Position numbers and translations under genes: made by a program. DNA of 16,821 nucleotides. Origin: an uncultured Anaerolineales bacterium (GTDB taxonomy: Bacteria; Chloroflexota; Anaerolineae; Anaerolineales; Villigracilaceae). The notes beneath the pieces were generated by a model. The model did no database searches. It saw only the letters and a program-made list of their open reading frames with translations, and was not told the DNA's origin. The stretch lies in contig CALFXA010000042.1 of the NCBI GenBank assembly GCA_937928015.1, forward strand, positions 1 through 16,821, in the 5' to 3' direction. Below, piece after piece: positions 1,366-7,952 of this stretch; position 1 is the first letter of the stretch, and the number at the start of each line of letters is the position of its first letter.

Positions 1366-1495
1366 GATTCCTGTAATCAGCGGGTTATGGGTCTCGATAA
1401 GAAAATCTAATAGGTGCATGTTATTTCCATCACTAGCACGTATAAGGAAAAACAATAGAATAATTGTGAAATAAAACACAAGAAAGGAGCGCAAG

Positions 1496-3016
1496 GTGAA
1501 ATCCAGGATTCTAAGTTTCTTGATCATTTTTACGTTCGTGCTTTCGGCCTGCGCCCCGGGGTCGACACCCTCCCCCACAGCGGCGGAGAAGCCAAGCGAA
1601 ACGGCAGCCAGCCCCGAGGTCCAGACCCCAAACGCAGGGACGAATGAGTGCCTGGCCTGCCACACAGACAAGGATCACCTGATCGCCACGGCCAAGCCGG
1701 TCGAGGCGGCGGAGTCCGAGTCCAAAGGCGTTGGCTGAGGGGGCGATGTGGCTCCGTTGGAGCCATGGGAAAAAGTATTGGTTGACGAAGAAGCCTTCGG
1801 CGCGACCACGCACGGAACGATTGCCTGTACCCAGTGCCACGGCGGGACCCAGTCGACGGATAAGGACACGGCTCACGCCGGGTTGATCGCCAGCCCGAGC
1901 TCCATGCCCGACAAGTTTTGCGCGGAGTGTCATGCCGACCAGACGACGGCGTACGCCGGCAGCCTGCATGCCACCCAGCAAGGCTATTGGACAGCCATCA
2001 ACGCGCGCAGTGTGCCAGAAGATCATCCCGCGCTGGAAGGTATGTTCAATAATCATTGCGCCACTTGCCATACCACCTGCGGTGAATGTCATGTGGCCCA
2101 GCCCGCGAACGTGGGAGGCGGCCTGTTCAGCGGGCACGTCTTCGAGAAGACCCCGCCGATGACGCGCTCCTGCACGGCCTGTCACGGCAGCCGCGTGGGC
2201 AACGAATATCTCGGCAAAAATGAAGGCGTGCCGGGCGACGTGCATTTCCGCGAGGGACGCATGAACTGCGTGAAATGCCACGAGGGCACAGACCTGCACG
2301 GAGAAGGATTGACCGAGCCGCAGTCCAACCGCTACGCGGGGGCTGAAATGCCCAAGTGCGTGGACTGTCATCCCACCGCCGCGCCCGGCGGAGATAACAA
2401 CCCGATGCACCAGGCGCACGGCGACACGCTCTCGTGCCAGGTCTGTCACTCGGTGACCTACACCAGTTGTGATAGTTGCCATGTGGCAGTCAGTGAAAAA
2501 TCGGGCAAGCCGTTCTACGAGACCTCGGCCACCTACTCGACCTTCCTGATCGGGCGCAACCCGATCCAGAACGAGGACCGCCCGTACCGCTATGTCCCCG
2601 TACGACACGTGCCGGTAGACCCCGAGAGTTACGCCTACTATGGCGAGAATTTGCTCTCGAACTTCAACGCCCTGCCCACCTGGGTGTATTCCACGCCGCA
2701 CAACATTCAACGCAACACGCCGCAGAATGCCTCCTGCGACAAATGCCACAGCGGAGACTCGGCTTACTTCCTCACAGCGGACAAGGTCAAGCCTGAAGAG
2801 TTGGACGCGAACGCTTCGGTCATCGTAAATACGCTGCCCTCGGCTGTGGAAAAGTACTTCAGCGCGCCCACCCAGCCCGCCGACCACGTCCAGCACGTCT
2901 CGAACTCGTGCACGGCCTGTCATTCCACGGGAATCCGCAATGCGCCGGTCTACCCCGAGGATCACGGCGCCTACCAGGACGATAACTGCATCAGTTGCCA
3001 CAAGTTACCCAAGTAA
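1496..3016 (+). CDS. Multiheme cytochrome c lipoprotein with in-frame TGA (possible selenocysteine)
   Basis: A GTG start at 1496 follows AAGGAG at 1484-1489. Residues 1-19 form a lipoprotein signal peptide ending LSAC (Cys19), then a Pro/Thr/Ala linker and the first heme site CLACH (52-56). Codon 81 is TGA (1736-1738). The same frame then runs unbroken to TAA at 3016 with 12 more CxxCH motifs (CTQCH, CAECH, CATCH, CGECH, CTACH, CVKCH, CVDCH, CQVCH, CDSCH, CDKCH, CTACH, CISCH), 13 in all and about 506 residues if read through. The downstream part has no signal peptide of its own, so it could not be exported and haemylated unless the TGA is read. The sequence resembles no multiheme subfamily I can name; an electron-transfer or sulfur/nitrogen oxyanion reductase role is plausible. 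It sits 37 bases before the tetra-rhodanese gene and is probably cotranscribed. Alternatives to recoding are a recent nonsense mutation or a single-base error (TGG Trp or TGC/TGT Cys to TGA). Confidence 0.8.
1736..1767 (+). promoter_or_regulatory. SECIS-like hairpin directly after the in-frame TGA
   Basis: TGGCTCC at 1749-1755 pairs perfectly with GGAGCCA at 1759-1765, extended by two G-U pairs (1748:1766 and 1747:1767). The triloop is GTT. The loop starts 17 bases after the TGA and has G as its first base. The bacterial SECIS consensus, as I recall it, asks for a 3-14 base apical loop with G in its first two positions, a 4-16 base-pair upper stem and 16-37 bases between UGA and loop. This hairpin meets all three. 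A hairpin this short can also arise by chance in GC-rich coding DNA, so function is inferred. Confidence 0.45.
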
Positions 3017-3053
3017 CTTGCCCCATCGAATAAACTTAATAGGAGAAGAATCC

Positions 3054-4757
3054 ATGTCGAAGAAATTGCAAGCCCTGTTCGGATTGCTCATCGCGCTCAG
3101 CATGCTCTTGAGCGCCTGCGCCCCTGCCGCCGCCCCCGCCGAAGTGACGGAGGCCCCCGTCGTCGTGACCGATGCGCCTACCGAGGCGGTAGTTGCTCCC
3201 GATGCCCAGGCCCTCTTCACCGACCTCGTCGCCGGCCTGACCAGCGAGAACGGTTACGGCACCGTCGGCGCCGCCAAGTTGAGCGAGGAGATGGCCGACA
3301 AGGCGCCCTTCCTACTGGACGTGCGCGAAGCCTCCGAGGTTGAGGCTGACGGTTACATCGAGGGCGCAGTCAACATCCCCGTGCGTGACGTGCTCAACAA
3401 TCTCGACAAACTGCCCGGCGTGGACGAACCCATCGTCATCTATTGCGCCTCGGGTCATCGCGGCGCGATGGTCCTGTCGGCTCTGAAGCTGATGGGCTAC
3501 ACCAACGTCCGCAACCTGGGCGGCGGCCTCGGCGGTTGGAAGAAAGCCAACCTGCCCCTCGCGAGCGGCATGCCCGAAGCGCCCGCCGCCATCAGCACCC
3601 CGATCATCGCCGACCAGACGCTGTTCGAAATGCTCAACGGCTTCCTTACCAACCTGCCCGAGGGCTTCTACACCGTCAAGGCAGATAAGCTGGCCGAAGA
3701 ACTGGCTGACTCCGCCCCCGTGCTGATCGACGTCCGCACCACTGACGAATGGAACAAGGACGGCTACATCGAAGGCGCGATCAACATCCCGCTCAACGAT
3801 TTCTTCACCAGCCTCGACAAACTGCCCGCCAAGGACCAGGCCATCGTCATCTACTGCGGCTCCGGTCATCGCGGCGCGATCGTCCTGATGGCCCTCAAGT
3901 TGATGGGCTATGAAAACGTCCGCAACCTGGGCGGCGGCCTCGGCGCGTGGAAGAACGCCAACCTGCCCGTGGTCGGCTGGGTCAACTGGCCCGTGGTGTG
4001 GAGCGACTTCCTCACCAACCTGCCCGAAGGCTACTACAGCATCAAAGCTGCAGACCTGAACACCGCCCTGACGGAGAATCCGCCCTTCCTGCTGGACGTG
4101 CGCGAAGCCTCTGAGATCGAGAAGGATGGTTTCATTGCCGGCGCGGTCAACATCCCCACGCGCGACGTGCTTAACAACCTCGACAAACTGCCCGCGCTCG
4201 ACCAGCCCATCGTCATCTACTGCGCCTCCGGGCATCGCGGCGCGATGGTCATGGCTTCCCTGCGCATGCTGGGCTACACAGACGTGAAGAATCTGGCCGG
4301 CGGACTCGGCGGCTGGAAGAAGGCCGAACTGGCCGTCGAGACTGGCGTCCCCGCCGCCCCCATGGCTGGCACCGCTCCCGAAGTGGATGCCACCCGCCTG
4401 GCTGGCCTCAATAAATTCCTCACCGAACTGCCCGAAGGTTTCTACACCGTCAAGCCTGCCGACTTGAACGTGGAACTGACCGGCACCCCCGTTCCGTTCA
4501 TCCTCGACGTGCGCACTCCCGATGAGTTCGCTGCCGGCTACATCGAAGGCGCAGTCAACGTCAACGTCACCGAGGTGCCCGCCAACCTGTCCCAGCTGCC
4601 CGCCGACAAGGCTGCACCCATCGTGGTGCTGTGCCAGTCTGGGCATCGCGGCGCGATGGTCATGATGTACCTGCGCATGCTGGGCTACACCAACGTCCGC
4701 AATCTGGGCGGCGGCATGAATGCCTGGGCGGCCGCTGAACTGCCCGTGGCCAAGTAA
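3054..4757 (+). CDS. Lipoprotein with four tandem rhodanese domains
   Basis: The ATG at 3054 is chosen because AGGAGA lies just upstream and it begins a lipoprotein signal peptide ending LSAC (Cys22). A Pro/Ala/Thr/Val linker follows, then four rhodanese domains, 567 residues in all. Each domain has the DVR motif and a six-residue active-site loop with an intact catalytic cysteine: CASGHR (Cys131), CGSGHR (Cys268), CASGHR (Cys390) and CQSGHR (Cys527). Rhodaneses move sulfane sulfur through a cysteine persulfide. Four active copies tethered to the outer face of the membrane suggest sulfur binding or relay outside the cell. Repeats 1 and 3 are the most alike, and active-site spacing is 137, 122 and 137 residues, which suggests a two-domain unit was duplicated. 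The gene follows the multiheme cytochrome by 37 bases, so they are likely partners. The donor and acceptor are unknown. Confidence 0.93.
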   Translation: MSKKLQALFGLLIALSMLLSACAPAAAPAEVTEAPVVVTDAPTEAVVAPDAQALFTDLVAGLTSENGYGTVGAAKLSEEMADKAPFLLDVREASEVEADGYIEGAVNIPVRDVLNNLDKLPGVDEPIVIYCASGHRGAMVLSALKLMGYTNVRNLGGGLGGWKKANLPLASGMPEAPAAISTPIIADQTLFEMLNGFLTNLPEGFYTVKADKLAEELADSAPVLIDVRTTDEWNKDGYIEGAINIPLNDFFTSLDKLPAKDQAIVIYCGSGHRGAIVLMALKLMGYENVRNLGGGLGAWKNANLPVVGWVNWPVVWSDFLTNLPEGYYSIKAADLNTALTENPPFLLDVREASEIEKDGFIAGAVNIPTRDVLNNLDKLPALDQPIVIYCASGHRGAMVMASLRMLGYTDVKNLAGGLGGWKKAELAVETGVPAAPMAGTAPEVDATRLAGLNKFLTELPEGFYTVKPADLNVELTGTPVPFILDVRTPDEFAAGYIEGAVNVNVTEVPANLSQLPADKAAPIVVLCQSGHRGAMVMMYLRMLGYTNVRNLGGGMNAWAAAELPVAK

Positions 4758-4818: not shown

Positions 4819-4943
4819 GCTTTGGGACTTTTACCCAATCCCGTTGTCAAAAATTCAGATGATTCTCACTGGTAAAAACCATGATTACAACTTATTCTGA
4901 TACTGTCACCTTATCATTTGGACTTATCAACCAGGAGAAAATC

Positions 4944-5894
4944 ATGGTCGAACTATCCACTTTGCGTGTATTTTTGGCGGCGGCTGAGGAACGGAACTTC
5001 AGCCAGGCCGCGCGGCGGCTGAACATGTCCCAGTCGGCGGTCAGCCAGAATATCCAGGCCATGGAACAGGCCTACAACGTCGAGCTCTTCCTACGACGCG
5101 GACGGTCGGTCGCGTTGAGCGAAGCGGGCGAAACCATCCTGCCGCTGGCGCGCGAGGTGCTGCGTTCCGCCCGCCTGTTGGAGGACAGCCTGCAGAACAT
5201 CCACTCACATGAGGTGGGCGGCGACCTGCTGATTGGCTGTTCGACCTCGGCGGGGAAGTATCTCATGCCCGCCCTGCTCTCCATGTTCCAACAGCAATAT
5301 CCCGCCGTGCATCCGCGCGTCAAGATCATGTCGCGGGATGGCATCTTCGAGCGCCTGGTCAACCAGACCATCCCGATGGGTGCCTCCAGCAAGTTGTTCG
5401 AGCACCGCGACATCGACTGCCAGCCGCTGTTCGATGACCGCATCATCCTGATCGTGCCCGCCGACCATCCCTGGGCCCGCTATGGTCATGCCACCCCCGA
5501 TGACCTGCTCGACCAGAAGATCATCATGCGCGAGGAAATCTCGGGCACCTGCGAGACCGTCATGCAGGGATTGCGCGCCTACGGCATCACGCCCGACATG
5601 CTTAACGTAGCCATGGAACTCGGCAATCCCGAAGCCATCGAGATGGCCGTGGAGCGCGGGGTGGGCATCGCCTTCGTCTCGGAGATGGTCGCCGCGCGTG
5701 GGCTGGCCTTCGGGCGCGTGAAGAAGGTGGAGCTTCAAGGGCTCAACTTGCATCGCACCGTCTACATCTCGCGCAACGTGCATTATCCATTTACACGCGC
5801 ACAATCCCTATTCTGGGACTTTGCCCAGACCCAGCGTGAAAAATTAAATACCGAGATATGGGACAGCCTGGTGAATTTCGCCACCAACCCATAA
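4944..5894 (+). CDS. LysR-family transcriptional regulator
   Basis: The ATG at 4944 is preferred over the upstream ATG at 4881 because CAGGAGAA lies eight bases ahead and the protein then starts at the family's usual position (MVELSTLRVFLAAAEERNFS). It is 316 residues long, normal for the family. Residues 1-60 are the winged helix-turn-helix, with the core AARRLNMSQSAVSQNIQAME. From about residue 90 there is a periplasmic-binding-protein-like effector domain with the typical start (GGDLLIGCSTSAGKYLMPAL), resembling the CysL/CbbR branch. These regulators bind a small metabolite and act on nearby promoters and often their own. Here the gene is not divergent from a target: it lies on the same strand between the rhodanese and the Fe-S oxidoreductase, so its target cannot be read from layout. 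A sulfur-related role is a guess from neighbours. Confidence 0.92.
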   Translation: MVELSTLRVFLAAAEERNFSQAARRLNMSQSAVSQNIQAMEQAYNVELFLRRGRSVALSEAGETILPLAREVLRSARLLEDSLQNIHSHEVGGDLLIGCSTSAGKYLMPALLSMFQQQYPAVHPRVKIMSRDGIFERLVNQTIPMGASSKLFEHRDIDCQPLFDDRIILIVPADHPWARYGHATPDDLLDQKIIMREEISGTCETVMQGLRAYGITPDMLNVAMELGNPEAIEMAVERGVGIAFVSEMVAARGLAFGRVKKVELQGLNLHRTVYISRNVHYPFTRAQSLFWDFAQTQREKLNTEIWDSLVNFATNP

Positions 5895-5966: not shown

Positions 5967-7952
5967 ATGCTCACCCTCGTTGAAAAGATCCTCTTTGTGC
6001 TGGCGGTGGCTGCATCCCTGTATTACACCTGGCGCGGCGTGGAACGTATCCTCAGGAACATCGGCAGCGGCCAGGGAAAGGTGAACTGGTCCCTCATTCC
6101 CAAACGGATTGGAGAACTGATCGTCAAGGTCGGACTCTTCCAACCCGTTTTTCGTTTCCGCCTGGGACCGAGCATCCTGCACGCGCTGATCGGCTGGGGC
6201 TTCCTGTCCTTCCTGCTGATCAACCTCGCGGACCTGATCTACGCCTATACCGACTTCAAACTACTGGAACACCTCGGTTGGTTCGGGAATGCCTATCGCC
6301 TGCTGGCGGATATTGCCAACGTGGCGATTATCGTCGGGATCGTGGCGATGGTGGTACGCCGCTTCCTCCTGCGACCTGCCACCCTGTCCACGCGCGAGAC
6401 GACCCTGCTGCACCCCAAGGCCCGCTTCGGCATCCTGCGCGACTCGGCCATCGTGGCGGGCTTCATCTTCCTCCACAACTCGATGCGCTTCCTGGGCGAA
6501 TCCTTCGGGCTGGCTTTGGCAGGTCACGCCGACCCGTGGCAGCCGACCATTTCAACGGTGGCAGGCTGGTGGTCGGGGATGAATCCGAGCACGCTCGTCG
6601 TGGGAGAGCATCTCGCCTTCTGGCTGTCCATCGGCGCGGTGGTGGCCTTCCTCCCCTATTTTCCATACAGCAAACATATCCATCTTTTCTTCGCCCCCAT
6701 CAATTTCGCGCTCAAGCCCGAGCGGAAATCCATCGGACAATTGAGCTACGTCAACCTCGACGATCAGAGCATTGAGCAGTTCGGCGCGGCCAAAATGAAG
6801 GACCTCGGCTGGGAGCAGATCATGGACAGCTACGCCTGCATCATGTGCTTCCGCTGTCAGGAGGTCTGCCCCGCCTATAACACGGGCAAGCTGCTTTCGC
6901 CCGCCGCGCTGGAGATCAACAAGCGCTACCACCTGAACGGCGGCGGCGCGACGGACGTGGAACTCAAGACGCTCATCTCGGATGAGGCGGTCTGGGCCTG
7001 CACCTCGTGCGGTGCCTGCGTGGACATCTGCCCGGTGGGCAACGAACCGATGCGCGACATCCTCGACATCCGCCGCAACCTGTCGATGATGGAAAGCGCC
7101 TTCCCCAAGCAGTTGGAGACGGCCTTCAAGGGCATGGAACGCAACATGAACCCGTGGAACGTGAGCCAGGCCGACCGCATGAAGTGGGCGCAGGGACTCA
7201 CGGTCCCAACCATCGAACAGAATCCCGAACCCGAGATTCTGTGGTGGGTGGGCTGCGCTCCCGCCACGGACACGCGCGCGCAGAAGACCGCGCAGGCTTT
7301 TGCGAAAATCCTGAACGCGGCGGGCGTGAACTATGCCGTGCTGGGCAAGAACGAATCTTGCACGGGTGACTCGGCGCGCCGCGCGGGCCGCGAGGACATC
7401 TTCTTCGGGCTGGCGACGCAAAACGTGGAAATCCTGAACGAAATCGCGCCCAAACGCATTGTCACCACCTGCCCGCACTGCCTGCATACTCTCAAGAACG
7501 AGTATCCCGCCTTCGGCGGCAACTATGAGGTCATCCACCACACACAGTTCATCAACGAACTGGTGGGTGCAGGCAAGATTCAGTTGGAAGTGACCCAGGA
7601 TGACATGAAGGTCACCTTCCACGACCCGTGCTACCTGGGACGCCACAACAAGATCGTGGACGCACCGCGCGAGGCGTTGAAGTCGGCGGGGGCGCTGACC
7701 ATCGAGATGCCGCGCCATGCGGAAAAGTCCTTCTGCTGCGGCGCGGGCGGTGCACAGATGTGGAAGGAAGAGGAAGCAGGCACGGCGCGCGTCAACGTGA
7801 CCCGCTTCGACGAGGCCAAATCGACCGGAGCCGAAACCGTCGCAGTCGGCTGCCCGTTCTGCCTGACGATGATGACCGACGCCTCCAAAGCGGACGGCGG
7901 CACGGTCCAGGTCAAGGATGTGGCCGAGATCGTGGCGGAGCGGATGAAGTAA
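5967..7952 (+). CDS. Membrane Fe-S oxidoreductase, FadF/EMO (ETF:menaquinone) type
   Basis: The ATG at 5967 follows GGAGG at 5958-5962. The protein has 661 residues. Residues 1-250 carry about five hydrophobic segments with histidines suited to b-type heme (HALIGWG, FLHNSMRF, HLAFWLS, HIHLFF), like a NarI-type domain. Two 4Fe-4S clusters follow: CIMCFRCQEVCP (Cys291, 294, 297, 301) and CTSCGACVDICP (Cys345, 348, 351, 355). Two cysteine-rich CCG domains follow, as in HdrB/D and GlpC (WWVGCAP with TTCPHCLHT, then FHDPCYLGRHN with SFCCGAGG and VGCPFCL). This order matches the FadF/EMO family, proposed to pass electrons from electron-transfer flavoprotein to menaquinone, taking the place of ETF-QO. 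No etfAB lies in the window, so the electron donor is not shown; a heterodisulfide- or lactate-type donor is possible. A GAAA-loop hairpin follows the stop. Confidence 0.88.
   Translation: MLTLVEKILFVLAVAASLYYTWRGVERILRNIGSGQGKVNWSLIPKRIGELIVKVGLFQPVFRFRLGPSILHALIGWGFLSFLLINLADLIYAYTDFKLLEHLGWFGNAYRLLADIANVAIIVGIVAMVVRRFLLRPATLSTRETTLLHPKARFGILRDSAIVAGFIFLHNSMRFLGESFGLALAGHADPWQPTISTVAGWWSGMNPSTLVVGEHLAFWLSIGAVVAFLPYFPYSKHIHLFFAPINFALKPERKSIGQLSYVNLDDQSIEQFGAAKMKDLGWEQIMDSYACIMCFRCQEVCPAYNTGKLLSPAALEINKRYHLNGGGATDVELKTLISDEAVWACTSCGACVDICPVGNEPMRDILDIRRNLSMMESAFPKQLETAFKGMERNMNPWNVSQADRMKWAQGLTVPTIEQNPEPEILWWVGCAPATDTRAQKTAQAFAKILNAAGVNYAVLGKNESCTGDSARRAGREDIFFGLATQNVEILNEIAPKRIVTTCPHCLHTLKNEYPAFGGNYEVIHHTQFINELVGAGKIQLEVTQDDMKVTFHDPCYLGRHNKIVDAPREALKSAGALTIEMPRHAEKSFCCGAGGAQMWKEEEAGTARVNVTRFDEAKSTGAETVAVGCPFCLTMMTDASKADGGTVQVKDVAEIVAERMK

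Follow-up and report, generated by a model that had tools for sequence, protein, structure and literature searches.

Selenocysteine (Sec) in a multiheme cytochrome has a precedent in ExtKL, a predicted Sec cytochrome of Geobacter whose cluster includes the rhodanese ExtH and which has been considered a candidate for selenite reduction (PMC5877670). A 2026 review lists 119 families and subfamilies, including ExtKL (NF040886) and a GSU2204-family CXXCH protein (NF041027), and also lists an octaheme cytochrome (TIGR04315) annotated in GenBank as containing Sec (PMC13188914). With ExtKL as precedent, a Sec multiheme cytochrome is therefore a known kind of protein. Here we describe a gene at positions 1496-3016 of a 16,821-nucleotide stretch of DNA from an uncultured Anaerolineales bacterium (contig CALFXA010000042.1 of assembly GCA_937928015.1; hereafter the window, whose features named below between 1496 and 5894 lie on the forward strand). 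Comparison with its relatives makes it almost certain that this gene encodes a selenoprotein, in which the UGA at codon 81 is decoded as Sec.

The product would share with ExtKL its export, its several c-type hemes, a single proposed Sec and a rhodanese-like gene in the cluster (PMC5877670, PMC13188914). Unlike ExtKL, which has 5 hemes, the window protein has 13 heme motifs, and its neighbours, a four-domain rhodanese and a LysR regulator, differ from the ext set as described. Membership of the ExtKL family or of the octaheme tetrathionate reductases (OTR, TIGR04315; structure 1sp3, with 8 heme motifs as against 13) was rejected by sequence model, as the window protein matched none of the NF040886, NF041027 and TIGR04315 models at E up to 10. 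We did not find a family with this spread, hairpin and rhodanese link described in our searches of the open-licence literature.

Results

The reading frame runs from GTG at 1496 to TAA at 3016 and is interrupted once, by a TGA at codon 81 (1736-1738, context GVG-U-GGD); with Sec at this codon the product has 506 residues. Ahead of the UGA lie a predicted signal peptide (1496-1552), with a lipobox-like LSAC at residues 16-19, and heme motif 1, CLACH, at residue 52 (1649-1663); a region holding 12 further CxxCH motifs follows it (1826-3001), giving 13 in total. Re-reading of the sequence thus confirmed the initial annotation of this gene, which had described a single frame with one TGA, a lipoprotein signal and a heme site before it and 12 CxxCH sites beyond. 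By its export signal and its 13 CxxCH motifs the window protein is a multiheme c-type cytochrome, with heme attachment predicted; it has Pfam matches to cytochrome c7, c3 and c554, and 14 histidines outside the motifs are conserved in the family. No NCBIfam model fits the protein, Rfam gave a single chance-level match over positions 1400-3200, elsewhere than the hairpin described below, and PADLOC returned nothing.

Relatives were first gathered by a genome-contig scan in which the query was the open reading frame downstream of the UGA only. This returned 12 relatives, 66-78% identical, from records naming Chloroflexota organisms, and every one has TGA at the same codon, within ESKGVG-TGA-GG[DE]VAPLEPW, with a signal and a heme site upstream. 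Profile A2 was also searched at E 1e-60 in 400 genomes of the phylum of genome G001 and 400 of its order, to which the genome sampling was confined. Twelve genomes of the phylum sample matched, and all 13 of their matches carry UGA at the site; in the order sample 82 genomes hold the cytochrome, and the site, which could be read in all 82, is UGA in 77 and something else in 5. Removal of 14 duplicates from 98 UGA loci left 84 distinct ones (a few near-copies among them). A CxxCH occurs at most 60 residues ahead of the UGA in 84/84 of these Sec loci, and a crude lipobox-like pattern in 73 of the 83 in which the upstream part is entire. Because the identical UGA recurs in 84 distinct loci, sequencing error, frameshift or a pseudogene can be ruled out. 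The checks suggested initially, among them the comparison of homologs at codon 81, mostly favour Sec.

The coding sequence is conserved together on both sides of the UGA. This bears on the alternative that the gene yields a short lipoprotein that stops at the UGA and, separately, another protein whose start is the GTG inside the hairpin; the hairpin would then be a regulatory or start structure. A protein search with the downstream part gave 2489 matches, the best 120 of which are all of 430 residues or fewer and therefore start after the UGA; such lengths would suit two products but reflect annotation, not experiment, and the database copies among the matches listed mostly lack the front part because the UGA is read as a stop. 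Residues to either side of the UGA are conserved together, and the UGA-free relatives considered below read as one continuous protein through the site. Moreover, c-type heme attachment in the usual way needs an exported protein; a downstream piece would lack the signal, and would therefore have no usual route to heme. We regard two separate products as barely credible. One source labels several of the cytochromes among the matches listed as 'thiosulfate/3-mercaptopyruvate sulfurtransferase', perhaps carried over from the rhodanese neighbour.

Bacterial selenocysteine insertion sequence (SECIS) hairpins lie just 3' of the UGA, with a G opening the apical loop. In the window, a 7-base-pair stem, TGGCTCC/GGAGCCA (1749-1755 paired with 1759-1765), starts 10 bases past the UGA and its GUU loop (1756-1758) comes after 17; the stem and loop of the initial annotation stand, but the 17 bases given there for the start of the hairpin are those to its loop. 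The loop is GTT in 84/84 loci, and 99.4% of stem cells are paired in 56 distinct rows, as against 34-59% when the stem is slid. On this comparative evidence the hairpin is one that follows the SECIS rule, and is a signal acting in RNA. In codons +4 to +8 the third base is G, T, G, G and G in 83, 84, 84, 83 and 84 of the 84 loci, respectively, and in codon +9 it can be any of the four. For codons +4 to +8 the excess in synonymous sameness is 0.987, compared with an average of 0.11 across 236 columns; the best non-overlapping set of codons (-6 to +1) scores 0.262 and the best distant one 0.258.

At the second stem pair, 78 loci have G-C and 6 have C-G, and the pair is broken in none. The swap comes at the cost of two residues, an Ala replaced by Pro and a Pro replaced by Ala or Val, and the tree requires it to have arisen through three or more changes. 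The covariation score and the double-change cells were matched by none of 500 shuffles, and the number of double-change pairs, which is one, by 252 of 500. The outermost pair (1749-1765) shows no conservation across the family, and in locus L056 the innermost pair is A-A, which gives a five-base loop AGUUA. The compensatory swap and the frozen codons agree with the covariation that had been anticipated for this hairpin, but the lone fold is modest: across four overlapping segments the hairpin folds better than shuffles, with z between -1.5 and -2.7, and two of the segments favour a different pairing. The evidence that the hairpin is not accidental is thus comparative.

Seven of the 12 relatives' genomes also contain UGA-containing formate dehydrogenase genes, in which, as in the cytochrome gene, an in-frame UGA is followed by a hairpin with GU in its loop. 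At seven such sites GGUCU follows 18 bases past the UGA, and the predicted fold places it in the loop in five. The proteins are unrelated, and GGUCU begins at base 19 past the UGA where the cytochrome GUU begins at base 18. If each loop is taken as five bases long, GU would occupy positions 2-3 in both.

Of the Sec machinery that the initial annotation had proposed searching for, three components were found in the genomes of the 12 relatives, with matches over cut-off to SelB in all 12, to SelA in 11 and to tRNA-Sec in 10. We screened 79 further genomes for SelB and SelA at E 1e-65. SelB was present in 52 of the 54 with the UGA form, in 5/5 with UGA-free forms only and in 12 of the 20 without the cytochrome; the corresponding counts for SelA were 52/54, 5/5 and 13/20. 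Both are commoner with the UGA form (Fisher p 0.0003 for SelB and 0.001 for SelA, uncorrected for kinship). Genomes G609 (locus L082) and G664 (L129) have the UGA form and neither SelA nor SelB at E 1e-65; either these genomes are incomplete or their Sec machinery is being lost.

Of 80 complete cytochrome genes, 12 end in UGA, which is therefore a normal stop in these organisms; a code in which UGA means Trp throughout was rejected on this ground. The same observation weighs on the proposal that some other tRNA reads this UGA (as Trp, for example), with the hairpin serving as a general readthrough signal. That proposal gains from the Trp codon (TGG) found at the aligned site in two UGA-free relatives, L084 and L085; it sits poorly with the greater frequency of SelB and SelA alongside the UGA form, with Cys at the site in four relatives, and with the position of both Trp forms on a quick tree, where each stands singly next to Sec forms. 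We consider it highly improbable.

Searches aimed at UGA-free relatives used a Cys-for-Sec query or a Cys protein, which may favour Cys forms. Among the 13 UGA-free relatives read, the residue is Cys in four (P0122, P0133, P0134 and P0136) and Trp in the two already named, in L084 after an apparent three-base loss. The other seven (P0123, P0124, P0135, P0137, L086, L087 and L103) have another residue, or a loop that is degenerate or missing. The Cys forms are those expected if Sec is encoded; the two Trp forms and the seven others count against a simple exchange of Sec and Cys. The quick tree, of 93 rows and with many weakly supported forks, requires six changes of the Sec label, and starred branches force four of these; rows without the UGA are scattered among Sec rows, as expected for repeated loss. 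In L085 the hairpin codons have drifted and GUU is gone. The UGA-free form of L084 (near 5895, reverse strand), sister to the Sec form of L082, still has a hairpin with GUU in its loop, although the closing pair is swapped, and may represent a very recent loss of Sec.

The gene following the cytochrome in the window (3054-4757) encodes a lipoprotein-like protein with four rhodanese domains (Pfam PF00581), each with CxSGHR. Four rhodanese units do therefore lie beside the cytochrome, as had been noted, but they are domains of one protein and not four proteins. A four-domain rhodanese adjoins the cytochrome in 12/12 close relatives, and there was a rhodanese match at 77 of the 79 Sec loci that could be judged, counted as a tblastn match within the fetched stretch, which often extends less than 1 kb beside the gene. 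In one locus (L094:1-2340, the same site as L057), rhodanese-like repeats run in-frame into the Sec cytochrome, the contig starting inside the repeats. A LysR-type regulator, identified by Pfam (4881-5894), is a frequent neighbour, present in 11 of the 12 close relatives (in the twelfth, L005, the stretch ends ahead of it), and is probably linked to the cytochrome.

Beyond it, positions 5967-7952 of the window encode a membrane protein with 4Fe-4S and CCG domains, with likeness to the DsrK/TmcB/TfrB type below cut-off; it is syntenic with the cytochrome cluster in four of the 12 close relatives and in L089, L090 and L092. In genome G406 (L096:1454-5339), a divergent Sec cytochrome has three other cytochromes beside it, one with nine hemes, one of b type and one octaheme, the last matching TIGR04315 below cut-off (164.6 of 375 bits). 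An octaheme cytochrome is also found near the UGA-free forms of L084 and L087. Genes for Fe-S and NrfD (polysulfide reductase-type) membrane proteins occur near UGA-free forms (L084:8101-11201, L085:9088-11550 and L087:7707-10797), and these three thereby differ in setting from the Sec forms with their rhodanese neighbours.

Discussion

The conserved UGA, the constrained hairpin, the exchange of Sec and Cys, and the Sec machinery of relatives together point to Sec at codon 81, and uphold the original proposal of Sec in the context G-V-G-Sec-G-G. That the gene is both decoded in this way and encodes an exported, lipoprotein-like cytochrome with 13 heme motifs is very probable. SelB and tRNA-Sec would decode the codon, directed by the hairpin at 1749-1765, and the product would be exported as a lipoprotein and loaded with up to 13 c-type hemes. 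Its single Sec would lie between hemes 1 and 2, within a glycine loop, GxGUGG; GxGU has an apparent likeness to motifs listed for HgcB and NF041211 in the review (PMC13188914). We suggest that this Sec is a reactive selenol and not a heme ligand, because the 14 conserved spare histidines would suffice for 13 hemes; by this count a Sec ligand would not be needed.

The function of the cytochrome would be sulfur or selenium redox chemistry. The Sec might accept sulfane sulfur, or else selenium, from the four-domain rhodanese encoded next to it. The selenenyl-sulfide so formed might then be reduced or oxidised by the chain of hemes, in a sulfur-compound oxidoreductase with a fold like that of octaheme tetrathionate reductase. 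We put this sulfur role forward as possible, at somewhat less than even chances. A first structure model, from 16 sequences, had a predicted local distance difference test (pLDDT) score of 37.6 and was not used; the best candidate fold match was a tetrathionate reductase, Foldseek on the second model gave nothing at E 0.001, and a sequence search of solved structures gave partial weak matches only, mostly to nitrite reductase cytochromes.

Alternatively, the same selenoprotein could handle selenite, tellurite or metals, as discussed for ExtKL, and take no part in sulfur chemistry. The clustering of ExtKL, the selenite-reduction candidate, with the rhodanese ExtH (PMC5877670) would fit this, as would a weak match of the Cys form P0134 to the NCBIfam models of ExtN and ExtO (35 bits, cut-off 200). 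Against it, the ExtKL model misses not only the window protein but also the cytochrome loci in 11 genomes, none of which has a match over cut-off and 8 of which have weak matches that fall off these loci; the best candidate fold match, too, is a tetrathionate reductase. We think this role unlikely.

Returning to a sulfur or selenium function, we offer, more tentatively still than the sulfur role itself, a Sec enzyme of the cell surface whose tandem rhodanese domains (fused in-frame in one locus) would pass sulfane sulfur or selenium to a free selenol placed where a wire of 13 hemes begins. This would couple the transfer of chalcogen atoms directly to long-range electron transfer, and in some Anaerolineales it may be a main reason for keeping the Sec code.

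Front-cut database copies, as in the best 120 of the 2489 matches, lose the signal, the first heme and the Sec, and such proteins may be misread as non-exported. The cytochromes would form a widespread selenoprotein family that we did not find listed, held by 82 of 400 order genomes, 77 of them in the UGA form. They would tie selenium to sulfur carriers and to multiheme electron transfer in Chloroflexota. Because Sec, Cys, Trp and loop-less forms all occur naturally and can be compared, the role of Sec in a cytochrome becomes directly testable.
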